From Pararhizobium capsulatum DSM 1112 (GTDB lineage Bacteria; Pseudomonadota; Alphaproteobacteria; Rhizobiales; Rhizobiaceae), in contig NZ_JAUSVF010000001.1 in the NCBI RefSeq assembly GCF_030814475.1, positions 3,746,001 through 3,810,000 of the forward strand: DNA of 64,000 nucleotides, read 5' to 3'. The notes beneath the pieces were generated by a model that saw only the letters and a program-made list of their open reading frames with translations, did not search any database and was not told where the DNA came from. This document shows, in pieces, positions 2,204 to 13,093 of the stretch. The translations under genes and the position numbers were made by a program. How positions within the stretch are numbered: the first letter of the stretch is position 1; every line of letters begins with the position of its first letter.

Positions 2204-2380
2204 CTGCTGGACAGTTCAACCCTGAAGATATCGGAGGCAGCCGAAGCGCTCGGCTTCAAGGATGCCGCTTATTTCGGCCGCTTCTTCAAGCGCATGGCGG
2301 GCGTCTCCCCCCGCGCATACCGACAAGGCATCCCACTGAAGCATGTCCGGTCCGAAACGAGCTACGCCGCCTGGCCATAA
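2203..2380 (+). pseudogene. C-terminal fragment of an AraC-family regulator
   Basis: About 58 codons matching the second helix-turn-helix of AraC/XylS regulators: LKISEAAEALGFKDAAYF, then GRFFKRMAGVSPRAYR, ending in a stop at 2380. No start codon or preceding domain belongs to it; upstream in frame it runs into the antisense of the broken cupin. It overlaps the 3' end of the neighbouring hexosaminidase gene by 19 bp. It looks like the end of a regulator whose remainder was deleted. Confidence 0.65.
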
Positions 2381-4377
2381 AAGCCGTAGAGCACCGGCAT
2401 CAGGCCCGCCAAGGCTTCGAACCGCTTAAAGGACTTGTGCTCGTCGCGCGTCCAGGCGGTTTCGGCCAGGGCCGAAAGCCGCGGAAAAACCAACCTGTCA
2501 AAAACTGCCCGGTCGCTCATCGGCTCCGACCAGATGCAGCACTGGACGCCAAGCAGGCGCGTCTTCTGCTCTTCGCTCCAGCCCTCGACCGGATCGAAAG
2601 TGTAGAGCTTCTCCGGGCTGGACCACCCCACCCAGCTTGCTCCGGGCTCGGACCACGCGGTGCTATTCGCCATGTCCAGATAATAGACTTTTCCAGGGCA
2701 GACGACGAGATTGTAGCCCTCGCCAGCCAGCGCCGCCGAAGCCTCAACCGTGCGCCATCCAAACAGCAGCGACTTCGCCTTGTCGATTACGTTGCCATGG
2801 GCAGCCTCCTGCCAACCGCCGGTGACGCGCCCCCGAGATGCTAGGAACGCCTGAATACGTCCCAGAAAGGCCGATTGCAGCACGGCCGCACCCGAACCTT
2901 CGATATCGTCGGCCCCGTGATGGTTGGTGATGACATCAAGTCGTTTGGCATGGCCATCGGCCAGGGCATCGCCGCCAATCGCCCTCAATTCGCCCAAAGC
3001 CTGCGGCGAGCCGGACCACGCCCCCAGCGGCACCTCGTCGGCACCGACATGGAAGACGGCGCAGGGGAAAAGCTCGATCAGTTCGTCAAAGATCGTTTCG
3101 AGCGCGCGGTAAGTGTCCTCGCGCGCCGGGTTGAGGCAATTGTTGGGGAAACCCTGTACCGAGTGATAATTGCCGTGTTCGGCCGGATCGCGCAGTTCCG
3201 GAATGGCTTGCAGCATCGCGTAACAATGACCGGGCACATCAATTTCCGGCATCACCTCTATGCCCAGGTTCCCCGCCAGTGCGACGATCTCCCGGATCAC
3301 CGCCTTGGTATAGTACCCTCCGCTCCGCTGCGGCGCCGAGCCGAGCAGCGGCGGGATGGCAAGCCCGTGGCCGCGCCAGGCACCGATTTCGGTCAAGGCG
3401 GGATAAGCCTCGATCTCCACCCGCCACGCCTCGTCATCGGAGAGATGCCAGTGGAAGCGGTTCAGCTTGTTCCAGGCGAGAATATGCAGGAAGCGCTTGA
3501 TTTCCGCAGCACCGTAGAATTGCCGGGCGACATCGAGATGCGTGCCGCGCCATTCATGTAAAGGCGTATCGACGATCTCGCCTTCTCCGGGAAAAATGAA
3601 GGTTCCCGGATGAAGCCGCGCGCCGCGCAGGATTTGCCCGAGTGTGATCAGGCCGTAGAGCAGCCCGCCATGCCCACCGCCCGCAACGGCAACCTCATTG
3701 GGCGCGAACCGCAAAATATAGGCTTCCGACCCCAAGGGCTCGTCCCTGCTCAGCGTCACCGGCAAACCGCCCTCGCTGGCGGAACGCACGATGCCTTCGG
3801 CGGGAAACAGATATTCGACAAGCTGCGAAAAAGCATCGGCAGCCTTTGTCGCGTCTCGTCCCTCCGGTCGAAGCGCAAAACCGGGTGGTGGAGGGGCGTT
3901 GCCTGATACGTTGACGGACTGCGGCCAGGGAAGAATGGAAACGGAGACAGGAGCCGCGACCGGCACCGGATAAACCAAGGCGCCACGCTTCAACTCCGCA
4001 TTGTTGCCGCTGTTTCCCATAGGCGACACCGCAACCGTGGCAGAGGTATCGTCAGCGAGAACAAGATAGGCCGCCGTCACACCATCAGTCCAATGATTGA
4101 GCGGATCGCTCATCCGTCGGATCGTCACCGCCCATGAGGCGCCTGGCTCAAGCACGAAGCCTTCCGGCGGCCGCAATTCCGCGTGGTTGGAGAGCCAGTG
4201 CACCAGAGTGCCGCCCTCGATATCAGCGCCTTGACCGATCCGTGCCGGACCTGACACGCAAAGCCGGAAATTGCGGATGGGAGCATCGGAAAGGTTTGCA
4301 AGGGTCAACCGATAGCTGCCGCCCTGTTCATCAGACACCCAGAGGTTTTCGAGCCGAAAAGAGCATTGGTTCGTCAT
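2362..4377 (-). CDS. Glycoside hydrolase family 20 beta-N-acetylhexosaminidase
   Basis: 671-residue enzyme predicted to remove terminal GlcNAc or GalNAc. The GH20 catalytic Asp-Glu pair is seen in HVGADEVPLG (about D447-E448), preceded by typical barrel motifs GTHLDVARQFY, NRFHWHLSDDEAWR and EIDVPGH. A non-catalytic beta-rich N-terminal domain occupies roughly the first 150 residues. No signal peptide is evident, so it may act on imported oligosaccharides. Start chosen at 4377 because GGGAGGTG precedes it; a start at 4395 would overlap the upstream gene's stop. Probably cotranscribed with the acetyltransferase 15 bp upstream. Confidence 0.9.
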   Translation of the reverse strand: MTNQCSFRLENLWVSDEQGGSYRLTLANLSDAPIRNFRLCVSGPARIGQGADIEGGTLVHWLSNHAELRPPEGFVLEPGASWAVTIRRMSDPLNHWTDGVTAAYLVLADDTSATVAVSPMGNSGNNAELKRGALVYPVPVAAPVSVSILPWPQSVNVSGNAPPPPGFALRPEGRDATKAADAFSQLVEYLFPAEGIVRSASEGGLPVTLSRDEPLGSEAYILRFAPNEVAVAGGGHGGLLYGLITLGQILRGARLHPGTFIFPGEGEIVDTPLHEWRGTHLDVARQFYGAAEIKRFLHILAWNKLNRFHWHLSDDEAWRVEIEAYPALTEIGAWRGHGLAIPPLLGSAPQRSGGYYTKAVIREIVALAGNLGIEVMPEIDVPGHCYAMLQAIPELRDPAEHGNYHSVQGFPNNCLNPAREDTYRALETIFDELIELFPCAVFHVGADEVPLGAWSGSPQALGELRAIGGDALADGHAKRLDVITNHHGADDIEGSGAAVLQSAFLGRIQAFLASRGRVTGGWQEAAHGNVIDKAKSLLFGWRTVEASAALAGEGYNLVVCPGKVYYLDMANSTAWSEPGASWVGWSSPEKLYTFDPVEGWSEEQKTRLLGVQCCIWSEPMSDRAVFDRLVFPRLSALAETAWTRDEHKSFKRFEALAGLMPVLYGFYGQAA

Positions 4378-4391
4378 GACACACCTCCCGT

Positions 4392-4868
4392 TCACTCGAC
4401 CGAAGTCAGCATGCCGGCATAGATACCGGGTGCCGAATTCGGAATCGGCATCGCACCCACCGCCCGCTCATAAAAGGCTGCCGGCCCGACATCGCCGATA
4501 ATCGCATAGGCATATCCCATCGTCTTGAGATCGATCAGCGATGCCAGCAGCAGCGCTTGGCCGATGCCCTGCCCGCGTACGCTCTCGTCGACACCCGTCG
4601 GCCCGAAGAAGCCGCGGGCAATCGATTCGTGGCAGGCGAAGCCAACGAGCTTGCCCTCCTTCGTCGCCAGGAAACAGCCCGGCGGCTGGCGGGAAAAGGC
4701 AACCGCTGTTTCTCCTGCCCAACCCGCGCCAAAGCGGCTGCGCACCCAATCAGTCACCAGTTCCAGCTCCGGCGCCAATGCCCGCCTTATCATGACACCG
4801 GTATCAGTCACGCGGGCATCGACTGCCGGATCGGCTGAAACGAGCGAAAGATTGACCAGATAATCCAT
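4392..4868 (-). CDS. GNAT family N-acetyltransferase
   Basis: 158 residues with the GNAT acetyl-CoA loop visible as VDESVRGQGIGQALL (R/Q-x-x-G-x-G/A signature), followed by a helix and the late strand AIIGDVGPAAFYERAVGA. The substrate cannot be told. It immediately precedes the GH20 hexosaminidase gene on the same strand, so an amino-sugar substrate is conceivable, but that is inference only. Confidence 0.85.
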   Translation of the reverse strand: MDYLVNLSLVSADPAVDARVTDTGVMIRRALAPELELVTDWVRSRFGAGWAGETAVAFSRQPPGCFLATKEGKLVGFACHESIARGFFGPTGVDESVRGQGIGQALLLASLIDLKTMGYAYAIIGDVGPAAFYERAVGAMPIPNSAPGIYAGMLTSVE

Positions 4869-4948: not shown

Positions 4949-6202
4949 CTAATGTCCGCTCGTCTGGAGCGTGACGACGTCACCCGGCAAGGTAAAAACA
5001 TGAACGGGCTCGCCAACGCCCTTCAGCGGGAACGAACCCAAGCTCTCGAGTTCCACGTCGTCGCGCACCATTTCCGCAAAAGCAGCGGACAATAAAACCG
5101 GCCGGCCGGTTTCTTTCGTCAAGGTTTCAAGCCGCGAGGCGATATTCACCACGGGACCGATAACCGTAAAATCCAGCCGCTTGCGCGATCCGATATTGCC
5201 ATACATCACGTCGCCGACATGGACGCCGACACCATAATCGAGCAGCGGACGATTGCGTTCGGCGTTTTCGAGATTAAGGGCAGTCATCGCAGCTCTCGCC
5301 TCTGTAATAGCATTGAGCAAATCGAGACCGGCCCTGGGGTTGCTGAGCGGAAAGATGGCAAGGAGGCCATCGCCCATGAATTTCAGGATCTCGCCGCCAT
5401 GGGCCTCGATCGGTTCGGACATGGCGTCGAAATAGGCATTGAGCAGGTCAATCACCTCGTCGCGCGGCCAAAGGTCGGAAATCGTCGTGAACCCTCTGAG
5501 ATCGCAGATCAGAATGGCGGCCTCGACGGTGACGCCGCTGCCGCGCGTCGTGGCGCCAGCGAGAATCTGCTCACTGGCATGCGGGCCGACATAGGTACGA
5601 AGGAAAGTACGCGCCAGAATGTTTTTCAACCGAATTTCGGTAACAAGCGTCAGCGCGGGTGTCAGATCCCTCAGGAATGTCAGATGCTCTTCGAGAAATC
5701 CGCCCGGACGGTCGCTGGCAAACGTCATGACATGACGTTTGCCAAGCGTGTGATCCATCGGCCAGGCAACGTAATCCGTCAGTCCCTCCCTGCTGAGTTC
5801 AACATAGAGTGAATAGGGATGGCCGGTTTCAGCCAACCCCTCGAGGTTTTGGCGAACCTCTGGCGTCCCGCTCAATATCTCGTTTGCCGGGCTGCTTTGA
5901 AACTGAGGGGTCGCTTCCACCCCGTAACCGAAGAAGCTGATCTTCGCCTCATCCATCCCCGTGCGCCAGAGGATGCGGGCACCCAGCCATTCGGGATGGT
6001 TGGTGCGAAAATGCAATGTCGCTCGGGCGACGGGGACACCTGCAGTCCGCAATCGGGTACACATTTCAGTCACGATATTGTCGATGAAGCGCTCGTCGCG
6101 CGTTCCCTGGATCAGCCAGTCGAGAATGGCCCGCCGCTGAACAGGCCATTGCCCCTCGACATCCCCCTGAGGAACCGCGCTCGTCTCCGTTTCAGAATCC
6201 AT
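4949..6202 (-). CDS. Class III adenylate/guanylate cyclase
   Basis: 417 residues. The C-terminal half is a class III cyclase homology domain: ILICDLRGFTTIS carries the first metal aspartate (about D234), GGEILKFMGDGLLAIFP the second, and VGVHVGDVMYGNIGSRKRLDFTVIGPVVNIASRLE follows, all family hallmarks. The N-terminal ~200 residues are a soluble sensor-like domain without membrane segments. It should make a cyclic nucleotide from ATP or GTP. Start set at 6202 (GGGAGCGG upstream); a longer reading from 6295 lacks support. Confidence 0.9.
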   Translation of the reverse strand: MDSETETSAVPQGDVEGQWPVQRRAILDWLIQGTRDERFIDNIVTEMCTRLRTAGVPVARATLHFRTNHPEWLGARILWRTGMDEAKISFFGYGVEATPQFQSSPANEILSGTPEVRQNLEGLAETGHPYSLYVELSREGLTDYVAWPMDHTLGKRHVMTFASDRPGGFLEEHLTFLRDLTPALTLVTEIRLKNILARTFLRTYVGPHASEQILAGATTRGSGVTVEAAILICDLRGFTTISDLWPRDEVIDLLNAYFDAMSEPIEAHGGEILKFMGDGLLAIFPLSNPRAGLDLLNAITEARAAMTALNLENAERNRPLLDYGVGVHVGDVMYGNIGSRKRLDFTVIGPVVNIASRLETLTKETGRPVLLSAAFAEMVRDDVELESLGSFPLKGVGEPVHVFTLPGDVVTLQTSGH

Positions 6203-6386
6203 GACGTCGCCGCTCCCGTAGCATCGATGCGCGAAGGTCTGTTTGTCCTTACGCCGGATACCGATGACTAGATTTCTAGGGAAGCTGCAAGTCAAGAACC
6301 GGGCACGCCAAATGGAAACAGATGGCTCAACTCTTTCTCGGCGTAAAGCTTCCGGTCATTGCGATGCACAATACCCGAAAAAATGC

Positions 6387-6498: not shown

Positions 6499-9400
6499 TT
6501 AGAAGCTCTGGTAGGCCACGATGACGGCGGCAACCTGGTCGGTATCGAGAGCTGCGAGCTGCGAGGACGTCAAAGCCTGCAACTGGTTGCTCGTCAGGTT
6601 GGCGATATCGTCGGTGGAGAGGCCCGGGAGGGCCTTCACATTGATCGCAGCGATGTCATCGGTCGAGAAGGTTACCAGGTCTTCCGTTGCGAAGGCGCCG
6701 ATTGCTGCCGAGCTGAGAGCCGCGACCTGGTTGGAGGTCAGAGCCTCGACCTGGTCGGTCGTCAGCGCCTGGATCTGAGCGGTCGTCAGTGCAGCAACCG
6801 CCTTCGAGTTCAGAGCGATGATCTGGTTGGTGCCGAGAACCGCGATGTTGTCGGTGCTCAGCGCAGCCACCTGCGTCGAGCTCAGGGCATTGACCTGACC
6901 GGTCGTCAGGGCGACGAGCTGGTCGGAAGTCAGGGCCTGAACCTGGGCAGTCGTCAGAGCCAGAAGCTGGGCGCTGGTCAGGGCCGCAACCTGCCCCGTA
7001 CCGAGGGCCGCAAGGTTGTCCGTGGACAGACCTGCCAGAGCCTTGGTACCGATCGAGGCGATATCCGCGGTGGACAGCGTAACCACGTCGTCCGAACCGA
7101 GTGCACCGAGCGCTGTCGAGCTAAGTGCAGCGACCTGGCCAGTCGTCAGGGCTTCGACCTGATCGGTGGTCATCGCACCGATCTGAGCGGTGGTCAGGGC
7201 CGATACAGCCTTGGAGCTGAGAGCGGCAACCTGGCCGGTAGACAGTAGAGCGACGTTATCGGTATCGAGAGCCGGGATCTGAGTCGCGGTCAGCGTTGCG
7301 ACCTGTGCAGTCGACAGAGAGCCGATCTGGTCGGTCGTCAGGGCGCCAACCTGCGCCGAGGTGAGCGACATGATCTGGTTCGTGGTGAGAGCTGCAACCT
7401 GACCGGTGGACAGTACCGCAATGTTGTCCGTCGTCAGCGAAGCCAGTGCCTTCAGGCCGATGGCTGCGATGTCGTCGGTCGAGAACACTGCGATCTGATC
7501 CGTCGATAGGGCGGCGATTGCAGTCGAGCCCAGCGAGCCGACCTGACCAGTCGTCAGGGCAGCTGCCTGATCCGTGGTCAGCACGCCGATCTGAGCGGAT
7601 GTCAGGGCGGCAAGAGACTTGGAGCTGAGAGCAGCAACCTGGCCCGTCGTAAGAACGGCGACATTGTCGGTGCTGATCGCTCCAACCTGCGTCGCGCTGA
7701 GCGCCGAAACCTGCGCGGAACTCAGAACAACAGCCTGGTCGGTGGTGATGGCACCGATCTGAGCCGTCGTGAAGGCGGCCATCTGGGTGGCGGTCAGAGC
7801 GGCGAACTGACCCGTGGAGAGTGCTGCGACATTATCCGTGGACAGCGAAGGCAGATACTTCACACCGATCGAAGCGACGTCTTCAGTCGAGAAGGTTGCG
7901 AGGTCTTCCGTACCGAGTGCACCGATTGCTGCGGCACCGAGAGCGGCGACCTGCGTCGAGCTCAAGGCTTCGACCTGGTCGGTCGTGAACGCATTGATCT
8001 GGTTCAGCGTCAGAGACGCGACGGACTTCGCGCTGAGCGCCAGAACCTGGCCGGTCAACAGCAGCGCGACGTTGTCGGTGCTGATAGCTGCGGCCTGGGT
8101 GCCGGTCAGGGATGCAACCTGCGTGGTGGTAAGAACGCCGACCTGGTCGGAGCTCAGGTTACCGACCTGCGCCGTAGTGAGCGATGCAACCTGTGCCGTG
8201 GTTAGAGCAACAACCTGGGCCGTCGACAGCGACGCGATGCTACCGGTGGAGAGTGTTGCCAGCATCTTGGTGGAGATGGCGGCGACGTCTGCGGTGGAGA
8301 ATGTAGCCAGATCATCGGTGCTAAGCGCACCGAGAGCAGCCGCGCCGAGAGCAGCGACCTGCGTCGTCGTCAGGGCTTCGACCTGATCGGTCGTCAGGGC
8401 GTTGATCTGGTCGGTGGAGAGCGCAGCAACTGCCTTCGGGTTCAAGGACGCAACCTGATCCGTGGTCAAGGCCGCAACATTGGCGGTATTCAGGGCACCG
8501 ATCTGAACTGTGCTCAGCGCCGCAACCTGGCCACTTGACAGGGCCACGACCTGATCGGTCGTCAGAGCCTGGATCTGGGTGGTCTTCAGCGCCAGAACCT
8601 GGCCCGTCGACAGTGCGCCGAGCTGACCAGTGGTCAGGATGGCAATGTTATCCGTGCTGATGGCGCCGATCTGGGTAGTGTTGAGGGCGCCGATCTGGCC
8701 CGCGGTCAAGGAGACAGCTTGGTCAGTCGTGAGGGCACCGAGCTGGGCGGTGGTCAGAGCCGCTATCGCGCCAGTGGAGAAGGCGCCGAGCTGCTCTGTC
8801 GTGAGAATAGCCACGCTGTCGGTTGACAAGCCGGCAAGCGACTTGGCGTTCAGGGCAGTAATGTCGGCCGTGGAGAGGACAGCAACCTGATCCGTGCTCA
8901 GGGCGCCAAGCGCAACCGAGCCGAGAGCTCCGAGCTGGCCTGTCGTCAGAACACCGACCTGATCAGTGGTCAAGGCATCGATCTGGGTCGAGGTGAGAGC
9001 TGCGACAGCCTTGGCGCTGAGTGCAACCACCTGGTCGGTGGAAAGCAGAGCAACGTTGTCGGTGCTGAGTGCTGCAGCCTGGGTTGCGCTGAGAACAGCG
9101 GCTTGAACCGTCGTCAGAGCGCCGATCTGATCGGTCGTCAGAGCTGCAACCTGAGTTGTCTTCAGGGCAACGATCTGACCGGTGGTCAGGGCGGCGACCT
9201 GGCCGGTCGAGAGCGAAGCGAAGCTCGCCGTGGACATCCCGGCCAGCGTCTTGCCGCTGATCGCGGCAACATCGGCGGTGGAGAACACGGCCAGTTGATC
9301 GGTCGACAGAGCGCCGATGGCGGCAACGCTCAGGCTGGCAACCTGTCCGGTGGTCAGGGCTTCAGCCTGTTCGGTCGTCAGGGCGCCGATCTGGCCGCTC

Positions 9401-10506
9401 GTCAGGGCCGAGATCGTCTTCGAGTTCAGTGCAACGACCTGGTCCGTCGACAGAGCGGCAACGTTAGCAGTGCTAAGCGCAGCAACCTGCTTGGCGCTGA
9501 GAGCAGCGATCTGCGCAGAGCCGAGAACGCTGACCTGATCGGTGGTCAGAGCGCCGATCTGAGCCGAGCTCAGGGCAGCGACAGACGCTGTGCCAAGAGC
9601 GGCAACCTGGTCGGTCGACAGCAGCGCAACATTGGCCGTCGTCAGGCCGGCAAGAGCCTTGGTGCCGATGGCGGCAACGTCACCGGCGGCAAGAGCGCCG
9701 AGTTGATCGGAGGTCAGAGCACCGATGGCAGCGGAACCGAGGGCTGCGATCTGGCCGGTGCTGAGGGCGGCAACCTGATCAGTGGTCAGGACTGCAACCT
9801 GTGCGGAGGTGAAAGCGGCAACAGCCTTGGTGTTCAGGGCTGCGACCTGATCGGTCGAGAGCAGAGCGACATTGTCGGTCGACAGCGCAGCAATCTGGGT
9901 GCCGGTGATGACGGCGGCCTGCGCGGTGGTGAGCGAACCGATCTGGTCGGTGGTGAGAGCATGGATCTGAGGGGTTTTCAGGGCTGCGACCTGACCGGTC
10001 GTCATGGCCGCGATCTGGCTGGTGGAGAGAGCAGCGATGTTGGCCGAGGAGAGGCCCGAAAACGCCTTTGCACCGATGGCAGCAATGTCATCGGTGGAGA
10101 ATACGACGATGTCGTTGGTGGTGAGCGATGAGATGACGCTGGAGCTCAGCGAGCTGACCTGCGAAGCGGTTAGCGATTCGACCTGCTCGGAGGTCAGGTT
10201 CTGGATCTGGGCGGCGCTGAGTGCGGCAACCTGCGACGTCTGGAGGGCCGCGACATTGGCGGTGTCCAGAATGGCCAGCTGGCTGAGTGTGAGACCGGCA
10301 ATAGCCTTCGTCGAAATCGCACGAAGCTGATCAGAGTCGAAAGCAGCAAGATCTTCAGTCTCGAAAGCTGCGAGCTGGCTCGAGCTGAGCGTGGCGATCT
10401 GCTTGGTGGAGAGCGCTGCCACATCTTCGGTGTTCAGCGATGCGATCGTTGCGGTTGAGAGCGACCGGATCTGATTGGTCGTGAGGGAAGAAACTATCGA
10501 GGTCAT
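6499..10506 (-). CDS. Giant Ser/Thr-rich octapeptide-repeat protein of unknown function
   Basis: 1,335 residues. After seven N-terminal residues (MTSIVSS) the whole chain is 166 consecutive octads of consensus L-S/T-T-x-Q-V/I-A/G-A, without one residue out of register, ending VIVAYQSF. Leu or Phe occupies position 1, Ser/Thr positions 2-3, Gln/Asn/Asp position 5 and Val/Ile position 6. No signal peptide, membrane segment, catalytic motif or cysteine is seen in the repeats. Similar low-complexity repeat proteins carry labels such as heme utilization or beta-strand repeat, but nothing here supports those names. Start at 10506 was chosen because repeats begin right after it; ATGs at 10542 and 10608 are alternatives. 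It is divergent from a GT41 glycosyltransferase gene, so glycosylation of its Ser/Thr residues is a reasonable but untested idea. Confidence 0.85.
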   Translation of the reverse strand: MTSIVSSLTTNQIRSLSTATIASLNTEDVAALSTKQIATLSSSQLAAFETEDLAAFDSDQLRAISTKAIAGLTLSQLAILDTANVAALQTSQVAALSAAQIQNLTSEQVESLTASQVSSLSSSVISSLTTNDIVVFSTDDIAAIGAKAFSGLSSANIAALSTSQIAAMTTGQVAALKTPQIHALTTDQIGSLTTAQAAVITGTQIAALSTDNVALLSTDQVAALNTKAVAAFTSAQVAVLTTDQVAALSTGQIAALGSAAIGALTSDQLGALAAGDVAAIGTKALAGLTTANVALLSTDQVAALGTASVAALSSAQIGALTTDQVSVLGSAQIAALSAKQVAALSTANVAALSTDQVVALNSKTISALTSGQIGALTTEQAEALTTGQVASLSVAAIGALSTDQLAVFSTADVAAISGKTLAGMSTASFASLSTGQVAALTTGQIVALKTTQVAALTTDQIGALTTVQAAVLSATQAAALSTDNVALLSTDQVVALSAKAVAALTSTQIDALTTDQVGVLTTGQLGALGSVALGALSTDQVAVLSTADITALNAKSLAGLSTDSVAILTTEQLGAFSTGAIAALTTAQLGALTTDQAVSLTAGQIGALNTTQIGAISTDNIAILTTGQLGALSTGQVLALKTTQIQALTTDQVVALSSGQVAALSTVQIGALNTANVAALTTDQVASLNPKAVAALSTDQINALTTDQVEALTTTQVAALGAAALGALSTDDLATFSTADVAAISTKMLATLSTGSIASLSTAQVVALTTAQVASLTTAQVGNLSSDQVGVLTTTQVASLTGTQAAAISTDNVALLLTGQVLALSAKSVASLTLNQINAFTTDQVEALSSTQVAALGAAAIGALGTEDLATFSTEDVASIGVKYLPSLSTDNVAALSTGQFAALTATQMAAFTTAQIGAITTDQAVVLSSAQVSALSATQVGAISTDNVAVLTTGQVAALSSKSLAALTSAQIGVLTTDQAAALTTGQVGSLGSTAIAALSTDQIAVFSTDDIAAIGLKALASLTTDNIAVLSTGQVAALTTNQIMSLTSAQVGALTTDQIGSLSTAQVATLTATQIPALDTDNVALLSTGQVAALSSKAVSALTTAQIGAMTTDQVEALTTGQVAALSSTALGALGSDDVVTLSTADIASIGTKALAGLSTDNLAALGTGQVAALTSAQLLALTTAQVQALTSDQLVALTTGQVNALSSTQVAALSTDNIAVLGTNQIIALNSKAVAALTTAQIQALTTDQVEALTSNQVAALSSAAIGAFATEDLVTFSTDDIAAINVKALPGLSTDDIANLTSNQLQALTSSQLAALDTDQVAAVIVAYQSF
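6502..10485 (-). repeat. 166 x 24-bp coding repeat in 408-bp super-repeats
   Basis: The 3,984 bp equal exactly 166 x 24 bp. A second order is visible: an octad pair of type FSTDDIAA-IGxKALAG recurs every 17 octads (136 residues, 408 bp), first at ~10101 and then eight more times. One interval is 24 octads. A second lysine-bearing octad (LSxKAVAA) holds position 12 of each super-repeat. Copies differ at the DNA level, so the array is old or under selection and not a recent slippage product. Confidence 0.9.
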
Positions 10507-11056
10507 GGACGCGCGCCTATATGTTGACCGATTGCACATGCCATTCCGCTCCACCAGCAAGCCGGTGTCAGACGTATCCCGCGCCTGCCGATCAATCGCC
10601 CGTCCCATGGACTTGAGCTATTGGCATCGACCGTCCGGTCGCCTGTTGGAGAAAAACGACGTTCCGTGGAACATGGCTCGTAGGAGCCAGCGCGTTGGGA
10701 GGGCATCATGCAGCCAGGGCTTGCGCTCTGTTTCCCACGCCTGAAGATGTCTGCGTCTCGCGGAAAGCAAGAGTTTCATCGTCAACTGCTTTCGACACCG
10801 CAATCAATCGAGGGTCTGGGCAGAGGCCTTGGCACACATTTAATTCGCCAGTTTCTAATTTTGGGTTAATGCGACTATTAAATTGTACAGGATTGAGGCA
10901 ACTGCCGCGTAAGGATTGCACCAGTATGGAACAACGACGGAAATCCTGCAGAAACGGCAACACAAGCCCAAAGCAAGCTACCGCTGATAAAAGCCCAGAA
11001 CGCTTCTGCGCGTCGTTCAACGTCTGCCGTCAGGCGGCCTCTTTCTGGGATGCCCC
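10507..11056. promoter_or_regulatory. Divergent intergenic region between octad-repeat and GT41 genes
   Basis: A 550-bp gap with no convincing gene. An AT-rich stretch at about 10838-10890 (TTTAATTCG through ATTAAATTGTACAG) is the likeliest promoter zone for the glycosyltransferase; promoters for both divergent genes must lie here. No clear operator palindrome was found. Short open frames here lack ribosome sites or protein-like composition. Confidence 0.4.
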
Positions 11057-13093
11057 ATGCTCAACGATAATGCATTCGCCTCTAACACTGGTACGCCGCT
11101 GGTTGACGCCCTGACCCGTGCACGTAACCAGCTCATGCCGCTGGCCGAGCTGTTCCAGGTTGCCGAGAGCTTCAACATCACCGGAGAACGCTCTACCGCC
11201 GCCGAGATCTACAAGACCTGGGTCGCCTACAACGACGGCAATCCCCTGCTTCATCTCGCCTATTTCAATTATTCCGTGACCCTTCGGCAGATGGGCGATC
11301 TTGCCGGCGCGATCCAGACGCTGCAGGCCTGCCTGAAAATCGATCCCAAGTTCGGTCAGGCGCATATCAACCTTGGCCGCGCTCTTGAAGATTCCGGGCA
11401 GCTTGTTCAGGCTATCCAGCAGTGGAAGAAATATGTTGAAACCACCTCGGAAATCACGCCGGATCGCGTCAACCATCGCCTGATGGTGCTGCAGCATATC
11501 GGCCGCGTGCTGGAAAACGCCGGCCTTCTTGAGGAGGCCGAAAACACGCTTCGCCAAGCTATGGAACTGCGCCCGGACAAACACGAATCAGGGCACCATT
11601 GGACCTCGATCCGTCAGCGTCAGTGCAAATGGCCGACGCTGGTGCCTTCCGAGAACGTCACGGTCAAGCATCTACTCGATTCCATGTCGCCGCTGACGCT
11701 GGCCTGCTTTGCAGATGATCCGCTGTTCCAGCTCGCCAAAGCCTACCGCTACAACAAATCGCTGATCGGACGGCCCGACCTGCACGCCTTCCCGCTGCGC
11801 AAGCCGCGGCAGAAGAGCGGCACCCGGCAGCGTCTGCGCGTCGGCTACGTCTCGTCCGACCTGCGCGACCACGCCGTCGGCTTCGCCCTGAGCGAGGTTC
11901 TGGAACTGCACGACAAGAAGAGCGTCGAAGTCTTCGCTTATTACTGCGGCGATAACCGCACCGAAGATGCGACCATGCGCCGGATGAAAGCCGTCGTTGA
12001 TCACTGGCGCGATATCGCGGGTGTTGGCGACCAGGATGCCGCAACCATGATCGTCAATGATGAGATCGACATCCTCATCGACGTCAACGGCTACACCAAG
12101 CATGCGCGGACAAAGATCTTCGCCTATCGCCCGGCCCCGGTCATCGTCAATTTCTGCGGCTATCCCGGAACCATGGGCAGCCCCTTCCATCAGTATATCA
12201 TTGCCGACGAGCACATCATTCCGCCGGAAAACGAGCTTTACTATACCGAGAAGGTGCTTCGCATTCCCTGCAACCAGCCGGTCGACCGCAAGCGTGTGAT
12301 CGGCAACAAGCCCACCCGCGCAGAAGTCGGCCTGCCGGAAAATGTCTTCGTCTTCGCAAGCTTCAACGGCATGCAGAAAATCACGGCCGAGTGCTTTGCA
12401 CGGTGGATGCAAATCCTTGCCGCCACCCCGGACAGCATCCTGTGGCTGCTTGCCGGCCCGGAAGACGTAAACCTGCGCCTGCGACAGGTCGCGAGCCAGC
12501 ACGGCGTCGCGCCCGAACGGCTGATCTTTGCACCCAAGGCAGGCAACCCACAGCATCTGGCCCGCATCGGCCTTGCCGATCTCTTCCTCGACACTTTCCC
12601 CTACGGCGCACATTCCACAGCAGCCGATGCATTGACCATGGGCCTGCCGATCGTAACGGTCCCCGGCAAGAGCTTTGCCTCGCGCTTCTGCGCCAGCATC
12701 GTCGCATCGGCCGGCATTCCGGAAATGATCGCAACGGATTTGACTGATTACGTCGCCAAGGCAATCGCACTCGGCAACGATAGGAAGAAGCTCGTCACCA
12801 TCCGCGAAACGCTGCTGGCCAAGAAGGAAAAGAGCATTCTGCGCGATATGCCGGCTTCGGTTCGTCGCCTGGAAGAGGTCTACTGGCAGATGCAGGGCGA
12901 ATGCGAGCGTGGCGAAACCCCGATGCCGGATCTCAGGAACCTCGACACCTATTACGAAATCGGAGTCGAACTTATTGCCGCGGAAACTGGTTGGGACAGC
13001 GAGGAAAGCTATCGAGCGCGTTACCTCGACAAGCTCACCAAGTGGAACACCTATGCACCGTTGATGCAGGACAAGCGTCTCTGGTCCAAGTAA
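11057..13093 (+). CDS. SPINDLY/OGT-type (GT41) protein O-glycosyltransferase with TPR domain
   Basis: 678 residues. Residues ~30-185 form TPR-like helical repeats (GDLAGAIQTLQACLKIDPKF, then AHINLGRALEDSGQ). The catalytic half matches GT41: LRVGYVSSDLRDHAVGF with the conserved His (about H272), HQYIIADEHIIPP, FASFNGMQKITAE with the nucleotide-contact Lys (about K441), and DLFLDTFPYGAHSTAADAL followed by PGKSFASRFCAS. GT41 enzymes transfer a sugar from a nucleotide donor to Ser/Thr of proteins. No signal peptide or membrane segment, so it acts in the cytoplasm. It is divergent from the Ser/Thr-rich octad-repeat gene, an obvious candidate acceptor. A strong terminator follows. Confidence 0.9.
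   Translation: MLNDNAFASNTGTPLVDALTRARNQLMPLAELFQVAESFNITGERSTAAEIYKTWVAYNDGNPLLHLAYFNYSVTLRQMGDLAGAIQTLQACLKIDPKFGQAHINLGRALEDSGQLVQAIQQWKKYVETTSEITPDRVNHRLMVLQHIGRVLENAGLLEEAENTLRQAMELRPDKHESGHHWTSIRQRQCKWPTLVPSENVTVKHLLDSMSPLTLACFADDPLFQLAKAYRYNKSLIGRPDLHAFPLRKPRQKSGTRQRLRVGYVSSDLRDHAVGFALSEVLELHDKKSVEVFAYYCGDNRTEDATMRRMKAVVDHWRDIAGVGDQDAATMIVNDEIDILIDVNGYTKHARTKIFAYRPAPVIVNFCGYPGTMGSPFHQYIIADEHIIPPENELYYTEKVLRIPCNQPVDRKRVIGNKPTRAEVGLPENVFVFASFNGMQKITAECFARWMQILAATPDSILWLLAGPEDVNLRLRQVASQHGVAPERLIFAPKAGNPQHLARIGLADLFLDTFPYGAHSTAADALTMGLPIVTVPGKSFASRFCASIVASAGIPEMIATDLTDYVAKAIALGNDRKKLVTIRETLLAKKEKSILRDMPASVRRLEEVYWQMQGECERGETPMPDLRNLDTYYEIGVELIAAETGWDSEESYRARYLDKLTKWNTYAPLMQDKRLWSK

Follow-up and report, generated by a model that had tools for sequence, protein, structure and literature searches.

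Does a glycosyltransferase whose gene adjoins that of a long, Ser/Thr-rich repeat protein act as its dedicated modifying enzyme? This question is raised by a divergent gene pair in the window, that is, the whole stretch of 64,000 nucleotides of Pararhizobium capsulatum DSM 1112 analysed here (contig NZ_JAUSVF010000001.1, positions 3,746,001 to 3,810,000). A preliminary description of this DNA had singled out the pair, at 6499-10608 on the minus strand and 11057-13093 on the plus strand, as a candidate protein glycosylation system, and both open reading frames (ORFs) were confirmed, with products of 1369 and 678 amino acids, respectively. Comparison with related genomes makes it fairly probable that the GT41 enzyme O-glycosylates the repeat protein in the cytoplasm, at the third position of its eight-residue repeats (octads), and that the resulting screw-like solenoid is then exported. 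We know of no substrate for most bacterial OGT-like GT41 enzymes. The pair comprises the following features:

6499..10608, minus strand: ALTTAQ (PF20080) octad-repeat protein of 1369 amino acids, proposed glycosylation substrate (Pfam)
10507..11056, no strand: intergenic region from which GT41 and ALTTAQ (probable start) diverge (coordinates)
11057..13093, plus strand: tetratricopeptide repeat (TPR)-containing GT41 glycosyltransferase of 678 amino acids, proposed modifying enzyme (Pfam, model)
11183..11596, plus strand: TPR region (residues ~43-180), proposed substrate-binding part (Pfam, model)
11822..12922, plus strand: catalytic GT-B region (residues ~256-622) (Pfam, structure comparison)

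The product of the minus-strand gene belongs to the Pfam family ALTTAQ_rpt (PF20080), with 917.4 bits against a gathering cut-off of 26.4 and 54 matching stretches. It consists almost wholly of eight-residue repeats, the register of which is unbroken over 165 octads. Ser or Thr occurs at position 2 in 128/165 and at position 3 in 140/165 octads. The earlier claim that nearly every octad carries Ser/Thr at both positions stands if at least one of them is meant (156/165; 95 %) and holds less well for the two together (112/165; 68 %), although the latter count still far exceeds the maximum of 24 among 2000 residue shuffles, taken over all phases.

The presence of the two genes is strongly associated. 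If the GT41 clade is defined by an identity of at least 45 % along almost the entire length, 11 of 61 relatives encode the enzyme and all 11 also encode an ALTTAQ protein, which occurs in 13 (Fisher 2e-10). Of 247 Rhizobiaceae genomes, 24 carry the GT41 clade, 24/24 together with ALTTAQ, which 34 genomes carry (Fisher 1e-25), while among 289 Alphaproteobacteria it is restricted to four genomes, all with ALTTAQ within 10 kb, the latter being found in six (Fisher 5e-8; six by a Pfam search instead of five). In these three sets, which share some genomes, the GT41 clade was never seen without ALTTAQ. For the sets of 247 and 289, the best two octad and best four GT41 candidates per genome were scored, under expect (E) value limits of 1e-60/1e-100 and 1e-35/1e-40, and genomes referred to as lacking GT41 are those in which the GT41 clade is absent, weaker GT41 enzymes of the 247 set being unlisted. 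The possibility that the two genes are rarely neighbours, raised when the pair was first proposed, does not hold, as 22 of the 24 Rhizobiaceae genomes with both have them no more than 10 kb apart on a single contig, and in G371, one of the two exceptions, a fragment of ALTTAQ adjoins GT41 at a contig end. Loci with a close GT41 (>850 bits) were fetched in 34 cases (30 from two smaller-scale sets and four from named genomes), and 31 of them hold ALTTAQ within 2 kb, the genes being divergent in 14, on the same strand in 14 and convergent in three. Order and orientation have thus changed while the neighbourhood was kept, which speaks for selection.

Linked pairs also turn up elsewhere in the Alphaproteobacteria as well as in Beta- and Gammaproteobacteria. 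Among 20 ALTTAQ loci of named genomes, 14 share their contig with a GT41 gene, which is no more than 1 kb away in 11 and at a distance of 4.5, 10 and 22 kb in L020, L021 and L023, the contigs of these three having been matched by their equal length. Among the remaining six, the genome of L014 has no GT41 at E 1e-20 and that of L015 only a distant one, while L026, L027, L030 and L031 are found on short contigs or at the end of one. On plasmids, GT41 was detected at E 1e-80 in 23 records and ALTTAQ at 1e-10 in 57, and ten of these loci were inspected individually. All 12 records with a GT41 of at least 44 % identity also hold ALTTAQ, compared to 3/11 with a lesser GT41 (two of Pseudomonas and one of Rhodovastum); the seven Azospirillum records and the single Collimonas record, each with a lesser GT41, have no ALTTAQ.

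Which residues might serve as acceptors is suggested by the Ser/Thr content of the octad positions, compared between Rhizobiaceae genomes with GT41 (31 genomes; 47 proteins) and without it (11 genomes; 12 proteins). Octads were called without use of positions 2 to 4, and the counts leave out proteins of fewer than 40 octads, loci L013, L016, L017 and L029 and a Shinella case considered below. Per genome, the fraction of Ser at position 3 falls into non-overlapping ranges, 0.18-0.37 with GT41 and 0.03-0.11 without, while that of Ser/Thr ranges from 0.60 to 0.95 and from 0.25 to 0.66, respectively. Where the enzyme is absent, median Ala at this position is 0.26 rather than 0.11, and median Pro 0.18 rather than 0.03. 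Ser/Thr at positions 2, 4, 7 and 8 is the same in both groups, with medians at position 2 of 0.78 with and 0.81 without the enzyme (p 0.84; the Mann-Whitney values are uncorrected for kinship), and Ser, Thr, Asp, Asn or Gly occupy position 2 in ~90 % of octads whether GT41 is present or absent. An AlphaFold2 model of the last 416 residues of the window protein, made with 24 sequences (predicted local distance difference test, pLDDT, 96), gives nearly each octad as one short helix running from position 3 to 7 or 8. Because the predicted helices start at position 3, position 2 would be the helix N-cap. As Ser/Thr at position 2 is explained by helix capping and is independent of GT41, this position was rejected as the acceptor, and position 3 is the likelier one.

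The trend was also followed on a tree of 68 proteins, 13 of them without the enzyme, built without the position-3 columns. The trait was taken from octads outside the tree where enough remained, proteins with few spare octads being measured over all octads, and proteins of fewer than 40 octads, six broken or cut ORFs and the Shinella protein were left out. The tree-corrected effect of enzyme absence is -0.256 ± 0.035 for position-3 Ser and -0.392 ± 0.049 for position-3 Ser/Thr, compared to +0.017 ± 0.028 for the control position 2. None of the independent pairs on well supported branches runs in the opposite direction. Furthermore, in an earlier tree the protein of the enzyme-holding genome G559, placed inside an otherwise enzyme-less group, has 23 % Ser at position 3, against 7-11 % around it. 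Unlinked paralogues in Rhizobiaceae genomes with the enzyme mostly keep position-3 Ser (0.30 in the second ALTTAQ protein of the window's genome), which fits an enzyme acting on every copy.

The one strong sequence match of the octad protein in the Protein Data Bank (PDB) is 9zem, 'HeliScrew4' (E 3e-19; 109 residues), in which nearly every octad has Thr/Ser at position 2, while position 3 is mostly Pro. It resembles a Pro/Ala-type class of ALTTAQ proteins with 15-28 % Pro at position 3 (L048, L049, L053, L055, L057, L071, L072, L075, L076 and L078), of which 8/10 occur in genomes without the GT41 clade. In the open PubMed Central (PMC) literature, no paper was found on HeliScrew4, on the ALTTAQ repeat or on the ALTTAQ-GT41 pair; the matches listed were unrelated or dealt with HMW1C and with adhesins in general.

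The window protein also repeats itself at a higher order, every 17 octads (136 residues), as detected by autocorrelation. Among 75 ALTTAQ proteins with an unbroken chain of at least 90 octads, the strongest lag is one of 17 octads in 44 proteins, of 24 in nine, of 34 in nine, of 10 in four, of 44 in four and of 27 in three, with 31 and 38 occurring once each. All observed lags are sums of 7 and 10, and the lags alone suggest ~3.4 octads per screw turn (17 octads in five turns). The true start of the protein is probably Met35 (10506), because many relatives start with MTSI(I/V)SSLS or alike; inspection by eye upstream of this codon revealed no strong ribosome-binding site. Matches of the protein to CAAP1, DUF4351, LRR_EndoS, DUF378 and a lanthipeptide leader were dismissed as weak, low-complexity matches to the repeats.

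The GT41 protein scores 258.4 bits against PF13844 (cut-off 25), and the TPRs reported in the preliminary description are present, with Pfam TPR_2, TPR_8 and others matching at residues ~43-180. Its sequence relatives in the PDB include human OGT, the Xanthomonas OGT homologue (XcOGT) and SPINDLY, and the best PDB folds for its model (17 sequences; pLDDT 90) are human OGT (E 8e-36) and XcOGT (2jlb; template modelling (TM) scores 0.70/0.85; 29 % identity). An alignment of 17 GT41 sequences, including that of the window and ranging from Rhizobiaceae to Burkholderiales, shows no variation at His272, Lys441 and Asp524 and conservation of at least 90 % at His500 and His519. The key His and Lys motifs were thus rightly described as retained, with His272, Lys441 and His500 aligned to a His, a Lys and a His residue of human OGT, respectively. 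The placement of His519 and Asp524 on OGT sites, as well as the names and roles of the OGT residues, is assumed here. One Gln of human OGT, which we take to be Gln839, is replaced by Gly in the window's enzyme. By these features the protein is predicted to transfer a sugar to Ser/Thr residues of a protein.

The genes near the pair point to a sugar donor and an export route. A UDP-galactopyranose mutase gene (PF03275) lies within 3 kb of GT41 in 30/34 close loci, on the same strand in 29. Of the enzyme-less genomes, 8/11 have no mutase match at E 1e-15 and three have one (60, 41 and 36 % identity). A neighbour cluster beside GT41 ('c2') was discarded, since its overlapping coordinates led it to be judged an antisense ORF of the mutase gene. 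In 13/34 close loci, a further gene (c4) with a PF12248 stretch is present; a PDB search with it gave no useful relative, and from its N-terminal sequence one might guess at a second glycosyltransferase. Loci L054 and L056 have an epimerase-family gene just upstream of GT41, a Pseudoroseomonas relative of which, in the same place, is annotated as UDP-glucuronic acid decarboxylase, and a GDP-mannose dehydratase accompanies the pair on a Pseudomonas plasmid. HlyD and ABC exporter genes occur at nine loci, none of Rhizobiaceae, by the pair in L054, L056, L028, L113, L114, L117 and L118 and directly after GT41 in L062 and L065.

Taken together, the proposed mechanism is as follows. The GT41 enzyme would recognise its partner octad protein through the TPR domain and transfer a sugar in the cytoplasm to position-3 Ser/Thr, the residue with which each short helix begins, in many octads. 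The transfer would take place before or during folding of the protein into a screw-like solenoid of short helices, and would result in a regular array of sugars along the screw. Where the mutase is adjacent, as in most close loci, it may make UDP-galactofuranose, either as donor for GT41 or for a second transferase. The product would then be exported, in several non-rhizobial relatives via the linked type I secretion system, and might play a role in adhesion or surface protection. A broader reading can be advanced only tentatively, at somewhat less than an even chance: that ALTTAQ proteins form a widespread, undescribed group of secreted glycoproteins (undescribed as far as open PMC papers go), sugared by GT41 at position 3 in most octads, with the sugar swapped between lineages by the linked donor gene. 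The latter would be UDP-galactopyranose mutase in the Rhizobiaceae, UDP-glucuronic acid decarboxylase in Pseudoroseomonas and Niveispirillum-type genomes and GDP-mannose dehydratase on the Pseudomonas plasmid.

Several observations weigh against this mechanism. The clearest exception is Shinella sp. PSBB067, where a close GT41 (999 bits) and a mutase adjoin an ALTTAQ protein with Thr at 0.13 and no Ser at position 3 over 53 octads, Ala, Asp, Lys and Pro being found instead; the other ALTTAQ protein of this strain is intermediate (Thr 0.32; Ser 0.16). The proteins of enzyme-less genomes G419, G461, G532 and G589, and one of the two of G005, hold position-3 Thr at 0.41-0.61 and lose only Ser. 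In the enzyme-linked, non-rhizobial loci L022, L024, L042 and L032, position-3 Ser/Thr is just 0.40-0.56, and two unlinked paralogues from GT41-holding genomes, L055 and L057, are of the Ala/Pro type. The groups with and without the enzyme also differ elsewhere, in Asp at position 5, Ala/Gly at position 7 and single Ser and Thr at position 2. Enzyme presence switches only five times on the tree, so that strictly independent pairs number between two (well supported branches) and five (all branches), too few for a sign test. The ALTTAQ protein occurs without the GT41 clade in 10/34 Rhizobiaceae genomes that hold it, and its fold therefore does not need the enzyme. As regards the donor, the mutase is not adjacent in the window's own clade (G000, G009 and G017) and is encoded elsewhere in the genome, that of the window's organism lying at C1:2121697-2122788 (75 % identical), while the non-rhizobial GT41 genomes G046, G235, G263 and G331 gave no mutase match. 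Finally, there was no HlyD-type match in the fetched Rhizobiaceae loci among L013-L107 (the whole genome of the window was not searched), and export in the window's organism is therefore proposed by analogy.

Three alternative explanations were considered. The Ser/Thr pattern could be purely structural, serving the N-cap and the first helical turn, with GT41 modifying another protein and the linkage reflecting co-regulation or another cause. The constant capping-type residues at position 2, with or without the enzyme and at the modelled N-cap, are in keeping with this, as are the Thr/Ser at position 2 of HeliScrew4 and the position-3-poor Shinella protein beside GT41. However, position 3 is mostly Pro in HeliScrew4 and Ala/Pro in many enzyme-less genomes, with Ser following the enzyme, and the linkage outlasts rearrangement, which leaves a purely structural pattern unlikely. 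Even less probable is a role of the octad protein as a glycan-binding, superhelical scaffold, with GT41 making the glycan on a bound partner. Such a superhelical-lectin role has been suggested for the mesothelin-type family (PMC2628672), and mesothelin structures are the best PDB folds for the octad model, among which HeliScrew4 does not appear in the Foldseek copy used. The resemblance is a distant one (best E 9e-5; TM 0.27/0.36), too weak for function to carry over, and a scaffold would leave the enzyme-dependent Ser at position 3 unexplained.

A FlmG-like flagellar glycosylation module, in which the octad protein would assist the flagellum or flagellar export, appears highly improbable. FlmG is a TPR-containing glycosyltransferase that acts on flagellins in the cytoplasm (PMC7591256), and flagellar genes are found close to ALTTAQ: FliF follows immediately in L089 and L094, FliD is not far off in L025, and Rhodovastum (L116) has a flagellar cluster in the vicinity. 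However, FliF/FliD relatives occur at only three of loci L013-L107 (flagellin itself was not searched), and mutase or type I secretion genes accompany many pairs instead. O-glycosylation of the octad protein by its linked GT41 thus remains the preferred explanation, and the original proposal of a dedicated pair gains support both from the co-occurrence of the genes and from the dependence of position-3 Ser/Thr on the enzyme, with Shinella as the one clear exception.

Some further features of the locus and of the protein family were observed. A cyclase gene (adenylate/guanylate cyclase domain; window 4949-6295) adjoins the ALTTAQ gene, and in relatives L033, L034, L052 and L069 a cyclase-domain gene likewise lies within 1 kb of ALTTAQ, whether GT41 is nearby or not. 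Beyond the cyclase, a GH20 hexosaminidase and a GNAT acetyltransferase are encoded at 2362-4868, and neither has a relative at E 1e-20 in the ORFs of L013-L107. The second ALTTAQ protein of the window's genome (L043; G000:C2:783991-788667) is encoded on another replicon, with no GT41 in the 20 kb fetched around it; its position 3 is nevertheless rich in Ser/Thr. Betaproteobacterial ALTTAQ proteins (L018, L019, L020, L021, L023 and L030) carry a C-terminal non-repeat tail, some with an acidic DxNxDG-like motif of a kind known from exported proteins, as judged by eye. The ALTTAQ protein of L114 (CP036421.1; 8704-13389) and those of other Cereibacter and of Pseudomonas records are annotated as 'heme utilization protein' or 'ICE nucleation protein', names for which the present data give no support. 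A weak ALTTAQ-like match (25 % identity) occurs far from the Proteobacteria, on the plasmid of a Spiroplasma endosymbiont (CP117533.1; 13681-16017).

The pair thus offers a concrete candidate enzyme and substrate in three classes of Proteobacteria, with a likely acceptor position, a gene neighbourhood that suggests the donor sugar and, in the ALTTAQ proteins of enzyme-less genomes, a natural control set. If the mechanism is correct, a folded screw with a regular sugar array could be used as a scaffold for glycoprotein design.

In comparison with known systems, the octad protein is a clear member of the ALTTAQ family (PF20080), known here by its name and description line, to which the present analysis adds the partnership with GT41, the trend at position 3 and a higher-order period. 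HeliScrew4 shares the octad signature but differs as a 120-residue chain with its predominance of Pro at position 3. The window enzyme resembles OGT and XcOGT in its TPRs, GT-B fold and conserved His, Lys and Asp positions; unlike these, enzymes of its type are linked to one repeat-protein substrate candidate and, at most close loci, to a UDP-galactopyranose mutase. HMW1 is modified in the cytoplasm before its export. Its GT41-family transferase HMW1C is described as the third partner of this large exported protein (PMC3983070). The analogy with HMW1C drawn at the outset is apt as a parallel in function, in that the transferase goes with its exported (here proposed) substrate, but does not extend to the enzyme, which is TPR-containing and OGT-like and scores only 31.2 bits against the cut-off of 1000 for the NCBIfam N-glycosyltransferase equivalog (NGTferase). 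HMW1C attaches its sugars by N-linkage, carries an AAD domain in place of TPRs and goes with two-partner secretion, whereas the present system has TPRs, Ser/Thr candidates and, in relatives, type I secretion genes. A further parallel is FlmG of Caulobacter, with substrate recognition by TPRs, a C-terminal GT-B domain and soluble, cytoplasmic O-glycosylation (PMC7591256). Its substrate is flagellin and its donor pseudaminic acid, while in the present system a solenoid repeat protein would be modified, probably from a UDP-sugar.

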